Virus record (IMG/VR): IMGVR_UViG_3300046723_000182
Location: 1-39,493 of that record
Length of the DNA stretch: 39,493 nucleotides
Strand: one strand, 5' to 3'
Source of the DNA: a virus
Shown: in pieces, positions 42-39,493 of the stretch
Position numbering within the stretch: position 1 is the stretch's first letter
How the letters are laid out: each line of letters begins with the position of its first letter
Program-made: the position numbers and the translations under genes
Notes under the pieces: model-generated
The model's input: the letters and a program-made list of their open reading frames with translations, nothing else
Told to the model about the DNA's origin: nothing
The model's database searches: none

Positions 42-193
42 ATGGTCCTCCTTGAGTGGGTGCCCGAGCGGAGAATAGCGCCATATCGCACTTGCTTGCT
101 ACCCCGGGTACAACCTGACAGGGGACACCCTACAGCACCCGGGGGGTGGGTGCCCGGGGCGCGTTAGCCGCCCGCGTTAGTGGAAACTGTACC
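42..193. other. Diverged left-end non-coding segment
   Basis: This stretch holds no gene. It occupies the same relative position as 39244-39366, between the start of the KVTKLRDF gene and the 127-bp repeat, but its sequence has diverged. Shared landmarks are a tgcccgg block followed by two cgttag motifs (162-180 here, 39335-39353 there). It looks like an alternative version of the right-end segment. Confidence 0.5.
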
Positions 194-320
194 GCCTTGA
201 GCCGTAAGGGTTTTTAGGCTTCAGCCTTTGCACGGCACGTACCATGTAGCATTTGCTTGCGACCTATGATATTATGAGCTTTCTCGTGACGGGTCATTAG
301 GTTGCGGGTGGTTGAGGACT
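194..320. repeat. 127-bp direct repeat, left copy
   Basis: This is identical to the last 127 bases of the window (39367-39493). It contains a near-palindrome, aggcttcagcct, and no convincing ORF. The contig ends exactly at the end of the second copy, and 127 is a common assembler k-mer length. The simplest reading is a circular or terminally redundant molecule closed by k-mer overlap. A real terminal repeat, or an attachment region next to the integrase, is also possible. Confidence 0.85.
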
Positions 321-380: not shown

Positions 381-394
381 ACATGGAGATGAGA
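381..394 (+). promoter_or_regulatory. Integrase ribosome-binding leader (ACATGGAGATGA)
   Basis: The GGAGA at 385-389 sits 5 nt before ATG 395 and decides that start over the in-frame ATGs at 383 and 389. The 12-mer acatggagatga recurs at 8177-8188, and inside the terminator loop at 10732-10743, where the transcribed strand is its complement. Confidence 0.6.
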
Positions 395-4915: not shown

Positions 4916-5542
4916 TTAGAAGCTCACCGCGATCCCTGCCGACAGGTAGTCCAGCTTGGAACTGCCGATGGTGGTGTCGTCGCCGATCTTGCTGAAGTGA
5001 TCGTACTCGGCGCGGATGCCGACTTGCGGCGTGACCTTGAACTCGATCCCCACGCCGATCATCGGTGTCGTATTGGAACTCGACTGACTGACTTGCGCGA
5101 ACCCGGCGGCGGAAACAGTCGCCGTCGCGTCGACGTTGAAGCTCCAGAAGCCGAGCTTGCCGTAGAGGTCGACCTTCTCCGCGACCGGCAGGTACCCGAC
5201 TACGTTCACGCCGACACCACTACCGGAGAACTTCGCGGTCGCGGTGCCCTGAGTGAACGTCGCCTTGTAGTTGAAGTCGGATGCGCCAAAGTAGGCGATC
5301 TCGACCGACGCCTGCGGCACGAACTTGTAGCCCGCGCCGATCATAAAGGCGCTCGCCGAGTCGGTCACCGTGGAGCTTAGGTTGGTTGCGCCCGCACTCC
5401 TCAACGCCGCATCGTTGCCAGCCTGATCGACGTCGACCTTCGCCGACCCTATCTGGCCGAACAGGTAGAACGGATGCGCCTCTTGCGCGATTGCGCCTTG
5501 CGTACATAACAGCACGAACAAAAATGCAAACAGCTTCTTCAT
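4916..5542 (-). CDS. Outer-membrane beta-barrel protein (OmpA/OmpW-like), lysogenic-conversion candidate
   Basis: The 208-residue protein begins with a clear Sec signal peptide (MKKLFAFLFVLLCTQGAIA, cleavage before QEAHPF). It continues as alternating aromatic/glycine beta strands, such as FYLFGQIGSAKV, MIGAGYKFV, VDLYGKLGFWSF and VGIRAEYDHFSKIG. It ends YLSAGIAVSF, a C-terminal Phe typical of barrels inserted by the Bam machinery. The size fits an eight-stranded OmpA-N/OmpW/opacity-type barrel. GGGAGG lies 5 nt before the ATG. It has its own terminator and a gap on each side, so it is a separate unit. Lambda Lom is a known phage precedent. Receptor masking, adhesion or serum resistance are possible roles by analogy only. 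Confidence 0.85.
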   Translation of the reverse strand: MKKLFAFLFVLLCTQGAIAQEAHPFYLFGQIGSAKVDVDQAGNDAALRSAGATNLSSTVTDSASAFMIGAGYKFVPQASVEIAYFGASDFNYKATFTQGTATAKFSGSGVGVNVVGYLPVAEKVDLYGKLGFWSFNVDATATVSAAGFAQVSQSSSNTTPMIGVGIEFKVTPQVGIRAEYDHFSKIGDDTTIGSSKLDYLSAGIAVSF

Positions 5543-7793: not shown

Positions 7794-7990
7794 GACACCA
7801 CCAGCCCTTCGGCCTGAATGCCCGCGACGATGTCGGCGATGTAGCGGTGCTCGACTGCGTACGCGAAGCCGAAGCACTGCGCGTCGGCGGGCAGGTGCTC
7901 GTTCGCCCAAGCGCGCGCGGCGCTGCTGATCGGGCGCAGCAGGAAGATGCTGCCCTCGTTCTGCACTTCAAAATCGGGTTGCTCGTTCAT
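7790..7990 (-). CDS. Hypothetical protein, first gene of the leftward early operon
   Basis: Start 7990 (MNEQPDFEVQ) is chosen because ATGGAGAG lies just upstream and supplies the ribosome-binding site; ATG 8002 is in frame but has no site. The 66-residue protein contains GSIFLLRPISSAARAWANEHL and AYAVEHRYIADIVAGIQAEG, probably an alpha/beta fold. It resembles small proteins common in phages and mobile elements, but I cannot name a family. It is expressed from the minus promoter at 8035-8065. Confidence 0.65.
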   Translation of the reverse strand: MNEQPDFEVQNEGSIFLLRPISSAARAWANEHLPADAQCFGFAYAVEHRYIADIVAGIQAEGLVVS

Positions 7991-8034
7991 CGGACTCTCC
8001 ATGTAAGGGCGGGAACCACTCCCACCGCACGCGC

Positions 8035-8065
8035 ATCATAGCACAGATCATGTGCCCACGGTCAA
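8035..8065 (-). promoter_or_regulatory. Leftward early promoter
   Basis: On the minus strand TTGACC (8065-8060) and TATGAT (8040-8035) are 19 bp apart, with an extended -10 TG (tgtgcTATGAT). The dyad operator at 8041-8055 fills the spacer. It drives 7990 and the eight genes behind it. The core is nearly identical to the rightward promoter at 8129-8159. Confidence 0.75.
8041..8055. promoter_or_regulatory. Operator 1, GCACA-N5-TGTGC
   Basis: This is a perfect dyad with arms gcaca and tgtgc around gatca, lying between the -35 and -10 boxes of the leftward promoter. A protein bound here would exclude RNA polymerase. Three sites of this type occur within 113 bp. Confidence 0.7.
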
Positions 8066-8095
8066 GGAGAATAAAAAGCCTTATGAATCAAGGGG

Positions 8096-8110
8096 GCACA
8101 GGCTATGTGG
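8096..8110. promoter_or_regulatory. Operator 2, GCACA-N5-TGTGG
   Basis: The arms gcaca and tgtgg surround ggcta, one mismatch from the other two sites. It lies between the two divergent promoters, like the middle operator of a lambda-type array. Confidence 0.5.
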
Positions 8111-8128
8111 TTCACCCCATGAAAAGGT

Positions 8129-8159
8129 TTGACACGAGGCACATATCCTGTGCTATGAT
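8129..8159 (+). promoter_or_regulatory. Rightward early promoter
   Basis: TTGACA at 8129-8134 and TATGAT at 8154-8159 have a 19-bp spacer and an extended -10 (tgTGCTATGAT). It lies 32 bp before the start at 8191. Operator 3 fills the spacer. The strong consensus suggests high activity when not repressed. Confidence 0.8.
8139..8153. promoter_or_regulatory. Operator 3, GCACA-N5-TGTGC
   Basis: This is a perfect dyad with tatcc in the centre, located in the spacer of the rightward promoter exactly as operator 1 is in the leftward one. It suggests common control of both early operons by one repressor. Confidence 0.7.
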
Positions 8160-8176
8160 GCGTGTGTAGTCCAACC

Positions 8177-8190
8177 ACATGGAGATGAAG
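8177..8190 (+). promoter_or_regulatory. Ribosome-binding leader of the rightward early operon
   Basis: The 13-mer acatggagatgaa at 8177-8189 holds the GGAG that sets ATG 8191 as the start. It is identical to the entire loop of the terminator at 10714-10753 in plus-strand sense. The minus-strand transcript loop there is thus its exact complement. Confidence 0.65.
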
Positions 8191-8505
8191 ATGACCAACC
8201 AAGTCAACGCCGCCGATGTCGTCGCGGCATTCGAGCAGCAGAAGCAAGCCACCGAGGCGCTCCGCGTCGCGCTCGATGCGTTCGTCGCAGCCAACGCGGA
8301 GTACAAGATCGGCGACGTGATCCAAGCCGACGTGGGCAAAATGAGGTCGCACGCCTTCCGCGTGAACAAGATCGCGAGCAAGGTCGACCGCGACTGCGTC
8401 GTCGTTACCTACACCGGGATGCGCCTGAAGAAGGATGGCAGCGACCACGCCTCGGCGGGCGGTTACGGGTGGCAGTACATCAGGCTCGCGAAGGCGGCGT
8501 CATGA
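8191..8505 (+). CDS. Hypothetical protein, first gene of the rightward early operon
   Basis: The 104-residue protein starts MTNQVNAADVVAAFEQQKQA, chosen because GGAG lies 6 nt upstream; ATG 8179 and 8185 are in frame. It has a helical N-terminus (about 1-36), then a beta-rich part (YKIGDVIQADVGKMRSHAFRV and GYGWQYIRLA) like a small SH3-type barrel. No family is recognised. The stop overlaps the next start by ATGA. Confidence 0.65.
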   Translation: MTNQVNAADVVAAFEQQKQATEALRVALDAFVAANAEYKIGDVIQADVGKMRSHAFRVNKIASKVDRDCVVVTYTGMRLKKDGSDHASAGGYGWQYIRLAKAAS

Positions 8506-9720: not shown

Positions 9721-9995
9721 GACTTGGTCACCTTCTCGAAGGGGCCGTCGAGTTCCCGAAGAGTTTCATCGAGGACGTCGGCGTTGATCGTGTCTCCGGG
9801 CTCGGGGTTGAAGCACTGGGGGCAGACGAATTTGACCTTGCCGGGGTTGGCCGCGAAGATCGCTTGCGTACTCGGCGCGCTGCAGACGTGATGCCCGCAC
9901 AAGTAGCAGCGGTGCGAGAACACCGTGCCCGCCGCGACCTCCTCGGTGTCGAGCACGCGCACGGAGAGAATGATGGTCTGCTCGGTGTCGCTCAT
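9717..9995 (-). CDS. Small zinc-ribbon protein
   Basis: The 92-residue product starts MSDTEQTIILSVRVLDTEEV with GAGGAG upstream of 9995; an ATG at 10025 lies in frame. It has two CxxC pairs, CYLCGHH and VCPQCF, separated by about 25 residues, which should bind one zinc ion. A nucleic-acid or protein-binding role is likely, but the family is not known. Confidence 0.65.
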   Translation of the reverse strand: MSDTEQTIILSVRVLDTEEVAAGTVFSHRCYLCGHHVCSAPSTQAIFAANPGKVKFVCPQCFNPEPGDTINADVLDETLRELDGPFEKVTKS

Positions 9996-10498
9996 GTGAG
10001 ACTCCTCAACATGTCGGCGCGCCACAAGATCGCCAACTGCCGCGCGCCATCGTTAGTGTACTTCTTGATCGACCAGTGGCGGCGCACCTGCTTGCCCGGG
10101 CTCGGGTGGTACCACGCGACCCAGCAGGCCCCGTGCTTGTTCTTGTCGAGCGTGATGCCGGTGATGCCGCTCTTGTTGTTCGATCGCGGCTTGACGATGT
10201 AGGGCGCGAGGCGGCGCTTCGCGTTGCGTCGCTCGGGCTCATTGGTCGCATGGAAGACCTCGTCGCGGGCCGCGCGCGCTGCCAGTAGTGCCGCACGCTC
10301 GCTGCCGTGGCGCTTCACACTGAAGTACTGCTGCGGAGCACCGATCGAGCGCGGGAAGCGCAGCGCGAACCCGCGCGTGACGTCGAGCAGCTTGCCCCAA
10401 CCCCACACCTTGATGATGAAGTCGTCGCGCTCGGTGCGCCACGCCGGGTGACTGGGCAGGCGCAGCCACTTGCCCTTGTGCTTGCGCCTCTTCGTCAC
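9992..10498 (-). CDS. AP2-domain-like DNA-binding protein
   Basis: The 168-residue basic protein has a C-terminal AP2/ERF-type unit: SGITGITLDKNKHGACWVAW, then KQVRRHWSIKKYTNDGARQLA (about 109-160). The pattern is three beta strands followed by a helix. The middle part (APQQYFSVKRHGSERAALLA) resembles a second, degenerate copy. Phage AP2 proteins are often homing-endonuclease DNA-binding parts, but no HNH nuclease motif is visible here. It may therefore be a regulator or a nuclease remnant. It overlaps both neighbours. Confidence 0.7.
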   Translation of the reverse strand: MTKRRKHKGKWLRLPSHPAWRTERDDFIIKVWGWGKLLDVTRGFALRFPRSIGAPQQYFSVKRHGSERAALLAARAARDEVFHATNEPERRNAKRRLAPYIVKPRSNNKSGITGITLDKNKHGACWVAWYHPSPGKQVRRHWSIKKYTNDGARQLAILWRADMLRSLT

Positions 10499-10713: not shown

Positions 10714-10753
10714 AAAAAAACAGCCCCGCGTACATGGAGATGAAACGCGGGGC
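10714..10753 (-). terminator. Repressor-transcript terminator with an anti-ribosome-binding-site loop
   Basis: The minus-strand stem gccccgcgt/acgcggggc (10753-10745, 10731-10723) is followed by TG and seven Ts. The 13-nt loop reads TTCATCTCCATGT in the transcript. This is the exact complement of the ribosome-binding leader at 8177-8189, and of 12 nt of the integrase leader at 381-392. It is a strong terminator and a candidate antisense element. Confidence 0.85.
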
Positions 10754-10811
10754 CGACCTCTCTTGCAGTGGTTAGTTGCAAGGTGGTTGAGGTGTGTAGA
10801 GTGTACAGTGG

Positions 10812-11408
10812 TTAGAAGTGTCGCGTCGCCGCGATCACACGACCTAGTACCTTGAAGGGTCCATCAATCTCTCGCCCGGGCTTCATCGTAGTGTAGAACT
10901 TGAAGCTGCCATCACCATCTGCGCGCGCGTACAGGAGGCGCACTCGGGTGCCGTTACGCACGAGGTGCAGCCCCTTCGTTTGCACCTTGATCATCGGCTC
11001 GATGAACACCACGTCGCCCTCGACGAACTCGGCCATCACCGTCTCGGTGTCACCATCGGCCACCACCGCGAAGACGTCAGTCGCACAGCCCGACACCGGG
11101 CAGATGCGGTAGTCGACCACCTTCGCGTCGAACGCCGCGAGCGAACGCAGCGGCACCTTGATCAGCGACACCGCAGGCGTGGTGCCCCCGTGCTTCTTGT
11201 CAAGGTCGTAGGGCTGCAGCTTCAGCCGCGCCTCGATGTCGCGCGCACTGCGCTCACCAATCCCACGGTGGCCCGAGAGAATCTGCCACATGTAGGTGTG
11301 CGAGGTCTTGAGCGCACGCCCCGCCAAGCTCGCGTTGTTCTCGAACATCTCCTCGACCAGCCGCTTGAGGTTCGTGCGCCGCAGCTTCTGTACCATCGTC
11401 GTCGACAT
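10812..11408 (-). CDS. Prophage repressor (HTH plus degenerate LexA/S24-like domain)
   Basis: The 198-residue protein starts MSTTMVQKLRRTNLKRLVEE. Residues 12-70 form a repressor-type HTH (ASLAGRALKTSHTYMWQILS, then GHRGIGERSARDIEARL). Residues about 110-198 follow the LexA/CI C-terminal barrel (DVFAVVADGDTETVMAEFVE, GDVVFIEP, RVRLLYARADG). The usual catalytic Ser of the GDSM box appears replaced (GDTE), and Arg sits where Lys is expected. Self-cleavage is therefore doubtful. It probably maintains lysogeny and may bind GCACA-N5-TGTGC. The start was chosen over 11444 because ACATGGAGG lies upstream. Confidence 0.85.
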   Translation of the reverse strand: MSTTMVQKLRRTNLKRLVEEMFENNASLAGRALKTSHTYMWQILSGHRGIGERSARDIEARLKLQPYDLDKKHGGTTPAVSLIKVPLRSLAAFDAKVVDYRICPVSGCATDVFAVVADGDTETVMAEFVEGDVVFIEPMIKVQTKGLHLVRNGTRVRLLYARADGDGSFKFYTTMKPGREIDGPFKVLGRVIAATRHF

Positions 11409-11617: not shown

Positions 11618-11647
11618 TTGACTCGCTTTGCATGCAGGCGCTACGAT
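11618..11647 (+). promoter_or_regulatory. Rightward promoter of the Cro/replication operon
   Basis: TTGACT (11618-11623) and TACGAT (11642-11647) are separated by 18 bp, about 40 bp upstream of the Cro-like start. It drives the main rightward transcription. Confidence 0.65.
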
Positions 11648-11687
11648 TCTCGGCTGCCACCTGCTCACACCGCCAGAGGAGCCGCCC

Positions 11688-12038
11688 ATGTCCAAGTCCC
11701 CGCACACGCGCCGCCCACCCAAGCGCCACACGCACGACGGGGCCAAGCGCGCACCTCGGGGCAAGCCACCGCGACGCGTGCGATCGCTGCAGCGGTTCTT
11801 GAAGGCCTACGGCCCCGGGAGCGAGGGCGCGAGGCTACGTCACGCCTTCGCCAAGCGCATGGACACGAGCCTGCCCTACCTCATCGCCCTCGCGTGGGGC
11901 TACCGCATCGCCAGCGTGGGCATGGCAGTGAAGATCGAGGGCGCAACGCATGGGCTCGTAACGCGCGAAGACCTCCGACCCGAGGAGGACTGGGCCGCGC
12001 TCGCGCCACGAGGTGAACTGCAGCACGCCGCAGCGTAG
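11688..12038 (+). CDS. Cro/YdaS-like regulator
   Basis: The 116-residue protein starts MSKSPHTRRPPKRHTHDGAK behind GGAG. After a basic, Pro-rich arm (1-35) comes a Cro/YdaS-type HTH: LRHAFAKRMDTSLPYLIALA, then MAVKIEGATHGLVTREDLRP (about 53-102). The VTREDLRP ending is characteristic of this group. It is divergent from the repressor, the usual position of cro, and would help switch to lytic growth. Confidence 0.8.
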   Translation: MSKSPHTRRPPKRHTHDGAKRAPRGKPPRRVRSLQRFLKAYGPGSEGARLRHAFAKRMDTSLPYLIALAWGYRIASVGMAVKIEGATHGLVTREDLRPEEDWAALAPRGELQHAAA

Positions 12039-39243: not shown

Positions 39244-39366
39244 ACGTCCTCCTGTAGGTTACCCTCCCGCGCCCGTAGGATAGGGGCGAGTAGCTACCAG
39301 TTGCAATAGGTGCCACCTTCTGGTGCCCGGGCCCCGTTAGTAGCCCGCGTTAGTGGAACAGGTACA
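39244..39366. other. Right-end control region
   Basis: No gene is seen. On the minus strand TTGCAA (39306-39301) and TATCCT (39282-39277) with an 18-bp spacer are a possible promoter for 39243. Two cgttag motifs lie at 39335-39353. It is the diverged partner of 42-193. Confidence 0.4.
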
Positions 39367-39493
39367 GCCTTGAGCCGTAAGGGTTTTTAGGCTTCAGCCT
39401 TTGCACGGCACGTACCATGTAGCATTTGCTTGCGACCTATGATATTATGAGCTTTCTCGTGACGGGTCATTAGGTTGCGGGTGGTTGAGGACT
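39367..39493. repeat. 127-bp direct repeat, right copy
   Basis: This is identical to 194-320 and ends exactly at the window end. It supports joining 39366 to 194 in a circle. Confidence 0.85.

Follow-up and report, generated by a model that had tools for sequence, protein, structure and literature searches.

The repressor locus of the phage in IMG/VR record IMGVR_UViG_3300046723_000182 (the whole 39,493-nt stretch analysed here, referred to as the window) very probably encodes an RNA that pairs in trans with the Shine-Dalgarno motif of several of the phage's own operons, which would block ribosome binding. A trans antisense RNA acting on a set of own translation starts is the best explanation because the RNA loop and the leaders co-vary among phages, and the probable outcome is that one such RNA shuts down an entire group of viral genes. 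The case for the antisense RNA rests on the relatives of this phage, not on the window alone.

The repressor terminator and its putative target leaders

The repressor gene is located on the minus strand (10812..11405, start codon approximate) and is of the lambda CI/LexA type, as judged from Foldseek and a sequence match. An AlphaFold model of moderate confidence (pLDDT 78.5) matched lambda and 186 repressors and LexA with a Foldseek probability of 1.00 and has the N-terminal helix-turn-helix and C-terminal LexA/CI-like fold of this family; the sequence search gave a weak match to phage Repressor 5d50. Divergent from this gene is a plus-strand gene for a YdaS/Cro-like regulator (11646..12038), with a below-cut-off Pfam YdaS_toxin match and a PHROG match as transcriptional repressor.

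A leftward, intrinsic terminator is found approximately 60 nt beyond the repressor gene stop. Its hairpin (10722..10755, minus strand) consists of the arms gccccgcgt (10723-10731) and acgcggggc (10745-10753) with the loop acatggagatgaa (10732-10744) between them, followed leftward of the stem by a tract of seven T (10720-10714, minus strand). The perfect 9-bp arms and 13-nt loop described in the original prediction are thus present, and the stem can be extended to 11 pairs. On the leftward RNA the loop (10744-10732) reads UUCAUCUCCAUGU, which constitutes the anti-leader element, and its CUCC is predicted to be unpaired.

The loop agrees at 13 of 13 nt with the rightward early operon's ribosome-binding site (8177..8189, plus strand; ATG at 8191), and 12 of 13 nt match the integrase ribosome-binding site, ACATGGAGATGAG (381..393, plus strand; ATG at 395), both as originally claimed. 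The match claimed for the leftward early operon leader (ACATGGAGA) also exists, but at 8004-7996 rather than 8002-7991; with the preceding T it extends to 10 nt, TACATGGAGA (7996..8005, minus strand; ATG at 7990). Similarly, the 8 nt said to be shared with the repressor's own leader were found at 11427-11420 (ACATGGAG, minus strand), making this leader a possible weak self-target. The distance from the RNA to its proposed targets in the window is 2-10 kb. The exact 13-mer occurs in only two places, 8177-8189 and the loop itself. An exact match arose in 0 of 100 dinucleotide-preserving shuffles, which bears out the earlier view that a chance 13-nt match is unlikely, and five sites with two or fewer mismatches were observed against 0.42 expected.

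The proposed antisense RNA is approximately 83 nt in length (10714..10796, minus strand, 5' end approximate) and lies downstream of the repressor gene. Three of its features had been missed in the original prediction. Stem-loop 1, CUUGCA-ACUAACCAC-UGCAAG, is located at 10762..10782 (minus strand) and is conserved. The 5' part of the RNA, ccucaaccacc (10792-10782), is complementary without mismatch to the 11 nt GGTGGTTGAGG (307..317, plus strand) upstream of integrase, providing a second possible contact (CCUCAACCACC, 10782..10792, minus strand). A -10-like hexamer, TACACT (10800..10805, minus strand; TACAAT in the close relative described below), stands just upstream of the RNA, where no clear -35 was seen alongside it. 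A hexamer of this TAnAAT type directly precedes the RNA in all eight phages (8/8), which points to a promoter of the RNA's own, and for this reason the RNA may be a separate transcript rather than the end of the repressor mRNA. The originally predicted trans action on early and integrase leaders is supported by the joint change of loop and leaders, while the predicted origin as a repressor mRNA 3' end is uncertain, and silencing in the lysogen after transcriptional repression would be a presumed effect.

Co-variation of RNA and leaders in related phages

Searched as nucleotides against phage records, the region gave no match, and the repressor search in viral contigs at first returned only L005/L004; no relative was found among genome contigs by repressor or RecT-like alignments. 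The only close relative is the viral contig L005, whose repressor is 67% identical to that of the window. Its terminator is unchanged and its RNA is identical at 79 of 83 nt, whereas the gene beyond the T tract has been replaced immediately after the tract. Stem-loop 1 of L005, CCUGCA-ACUAACCAC-UGCAGG, differs by one compensatory pair and retains an identical loop. The loop matches 14 nt of the L005 integrase leader and 12 nt each of the right and left early leaders, and the second contact is matched as well. The repressor leader carries 8-9 nt of the motif in both phages. A 15-mer including the loop occurs in 56 stretches of the viral contigs, and only the stretch on the L005 contig forms a hairpin with 9-bp arms.

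Further phages, with repressors approximately 30% identical to that of the window, were found by RecT-like alignment. In four distant relatives a structured RNA occupies the same position and is antisense to a different motif that matches the phage's own leaders by 11-15 nt. The element is carried in the terminator loop in L077 (anti-GGAGATAGAGATGA) and L075/L083 (anti-GACAGGAGACAAAG), and in a hairpin before the terminator in L078 (anti-CTCAACCTAGGAGAA) and L072 (anti-TCAACCAGGAGAAC). In the phage concerned, each motif occurs in sense orientation across the Shine-Dalgarno sequences of its early operons, of other genes and, where it is on the contig, of integrase; the motif precedes integrase in 5/5 phages with both RNA and integrase on the contig. 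Compensatory pairs support the RNA secondary structure. L081 and L082 have the same architecture; the leaders of L081 lie off its contig, and the L082 element has one mismatch to its own early leaders, with a contiguous match of 8-9 nt. An RNA carrying GATCTCCTGGTTA is predicted for L079/L007. The original prediction had named a loop that changes freely beside a constant leader as the pattern that would speak against it; in the related phages loop and leaders change together. A pattern scan for the RNA tail yielded no new phage, its other matches resembling chance, and the multi-leader antisense element was not seen in the more distant repressor matches L086-L098.

The correspondence was quantified in six phages of five motif classes, whose contigs, all from metagenomes, include RNA and leaders alike. 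To avoid motif-based choice, 17 leaders (integrase and both early operons) were picked by homology or position; the cross-phage matrix was computed without self overlaps and then with these leaders. The longest exact complement to a leader was 10-15 nt (mean 12.7) for the phage's own RNA and 5-10 nt (mean 6.3) for the RNAs of other phages (Mann-Whitney p 2e-11, a value that treats the leaders as independent, which is not fully so). The true assignment of RNAs to leaders was the best of 120 permutations, a more cautious figure that five classes limit to 1/120. Shuffled RNAs reached the observed score in 0 of 2000 cases in each of the six phages. Duplex energies calculated with the GC-rich flanks gave no discrimination, and the test was then run on just the loop element; since pairing to a closed hairpin loop is outside what RNAcofold can model, its energies for such cases say little.

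A loose whole-genome scan was also made for sites antisense to at least three leaders. In L005, L077 and L083 no site other than the RNA was of this kind. In the window the RNA did not stand out, as GC-rich coding sites scored as high or higher, and in L072 and L078 the scan gave nothing, a spurious antisense start codon overlapping the RNA. Control sequences gave eight sites in 613 kb, those listed being GC-rich.

Several other observations concern the early operons. Between the window and L005, the rightward early operon has exchanged its opening gene for an unrelated one at the start codon, with promoter and leader kept (window 8177-8191, L005 8799-8813). A dyad resembling GGCACA..TGTGC was seen by eye to overlap the -10 of the early promoters (window 8030-8160). 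Such dyads vary across the window, L072, L074, L075, L077, L078 and L082 (GGCACA..TGTGC, GCACGG..CCGTGC, ACGGG..CCCGT); they are probably repressor operators diversifying alongside the leader motif. Also, many early leaders have TGTAGT or GTAGT close to where transcription is predicted to start (L005 8790; L072, L074, L078, L083), independently of the ribosome-binding-site motif.

Proposed mechanism and alternative explanations

In the proposed mechanism, the repressor locus would give rise to an antisense RNA approximately 80-110 nt long, transcribed either from a promoter of its own or together with the repressor, as the 3' end of that mRNA. Through a loop or bulge that contains CUCC, this RNA would base-pair in trans with a motif of 10-15 nt that spans the Shine-Dalgarno sequence of integrase, both divergent early operons and sometimes others, and this pairing would block ribosome binding, adding a post-transcriptional lock to CI-type protein repression. 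Folding predictions leave at least some of the CUCC-containing core unpaired in every element, and most of it overall, and parts of the anti-leader element are paired in the free RNA; the core appears suited to starting pairing with the GGAG of the leader. Repression of translation is the natural reading because the pairing covers the Shine-Dalgarno sequence, and lysogeny and immunity would be served by it. It is conceivable, with somewhat less than even chances, that the RNA forms a second immunity layer, in which each phage of this group has one small RNA and a private ribosome-binding-site code that silence its integration and early operons, together with the corresponding operons of superinfecting phages sharing that code, specificity diversifying via loops and operators.

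A different outcome of the same pairing, in which the RNA stabilises or activates the leaders or the leader mRNAs act as a sponge for the RNA, is very unlikely. The sign of regulation is deduced, and the 8-9 nt of the motif in the repressor leaders of the window and L005 would fit such a role, but the pairing lies over the Shine-Dalgarno sequence in every case, and pairing of this kind blocks translation for C4 (PMC5320573, PMC12197685). It is very unlikely that the motif is a DNA site for a regulator protein and the terminator copy one more such site. Although the motif is found at several regulated operons, and the early-promoter dyads likewise vary between phages, it is not palindromic and overlies the Shine-Dalgarno sequence immediately ahead of the start codon. 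In all six phages the copy outside the leaders runs antisense on the strand of the repressor and falls within a stem-loop, and the dyads that overlap the -10 make stronger operator candidates.

Least probable, and likewise very unlikely, is that ordinary ribosome-binding sites are shared and a chance or leftover copy resides in the terminator loop. All motifs do contain the Shine-Dalgarno core, and GC-rich genomes give many 11-nt antisense matches in loose scans. Against this stand the shuffles of the 13-mer, the loop left unchanged while the neighbouring gene was replaced, and matches that exceed the core, vary by phage and track the phage's own RNA.

If trans antisense control of translation is correct, a single repressor-linked RNA governs several own operons at translation start via a phage-private ribosome-binding-site motif, a multi-target version of C4-type antisense immunity. 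A shared leader motif with an antisense loop near the repressor would then be a signature to look for in other temperate phages, and the co-variation makes orthogonal RNA/leader pairs directly testable.

Related systems and genome context

By analogy, the C4 antisense RNA of P1/P7 appears the closest known system in how it works. C4 pairing over the Shine-Dalgarno sequence blocks translation (PMC5320573, PMC12197685). Like the RNA proposed here, C4 is a short RNA of phage immunity, and its loops are complementary to target sequences at and upstream of the ribosome-binding site; the loop in the window is likewise complementary to the ribosome-binding sites of its putative targets. Between P1 and P7, the C4 loop and its target vary in concert (heteroimmunity), and C4 is processed by RNase P from a longer transcript. 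C4 pairs at two sites; the possible second contact in the window and L005, between CCUCAACCACC and the GGUGGUUGAGG that lies upstream of integrase, is reminiscent of this, a resemblance that is only suggestive. However, C4 targets the mRNA of ant (antirepressor), whereas the putative targets here are integrase and divergent early operon leaders elsewhere in the genome, and the RNA follows a CI-type repressor gene. The Rfam C4 model had no match at gathering score in the window, where all Rfam matches were sub-threshold, and no match at E<=1 in the RNA regions of the window, L072, L077 and L078.

On the leader side only, the motifs resemble the Start-Associated Sequences (SAS) of cluster K mycobacteriophages, a repeated asymmetric motif over the ribosome-binding site of many non-structural genes, whose function is unknown and for which an RNA partner was considered possible (PMC3203893). 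In both cases the Shine-Dalgarno sequence, a few nt ahead of the start codon, is covered by a repeated asymmetric motif; the SAS consensus is GGGATAGGAGCCC, in contrast to ACATGGAGATGA, GGAGATAGAGATGA, CAACCTAGGAGAA, CAACCAGGAGAAC and GACAGGAGACAA here. If true, the proposed control would suggest one reason for long motifs common to a phage's ribosome-binding sites, an open question for SAS. Cluster K SAS was considered as the same system and rejected: the only antisense copy in Anaya is far from the repressor, with a fold no better than shuffles.

Lambda OOP, P22 sas and other cis RNAs are likewise antisense to the phage's own genes (PMC12197685). These RNAs are encoded opposite their targets, whereas the RNA here lies kilobases from its putative targets rather than opposite them. 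The CI RNA of satellite phage P4 provides RNA-based immunity via leader pairing, as proposed here. The P4 RNA works by terminating transcription of its own operon prematurely, while in the present case it is the translation starts of several operons that appear to be covered. In the open PMC papers searched, no phage RNA was found that targets several leaders of its own phage in trans, a statement of novelty limited to that literature.

Other features of the window are recorded here. A gene for an AP2-domain protein, possibly homing-endonuclease-like, adjoins the repressor region (9992-10498). The ends of the window (149-320 and 39322-39493) carry a near-identical 172-bp sequence (95%), and therefore the genome probably closes on itself; positions 24-148 are unlike both the end copy and L005. 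The early region also contains a conserved extra gene for an OmpA-like outer-membrane beta-barrel (4916-5542), which is 95% identical in L005 and 81% in L074.
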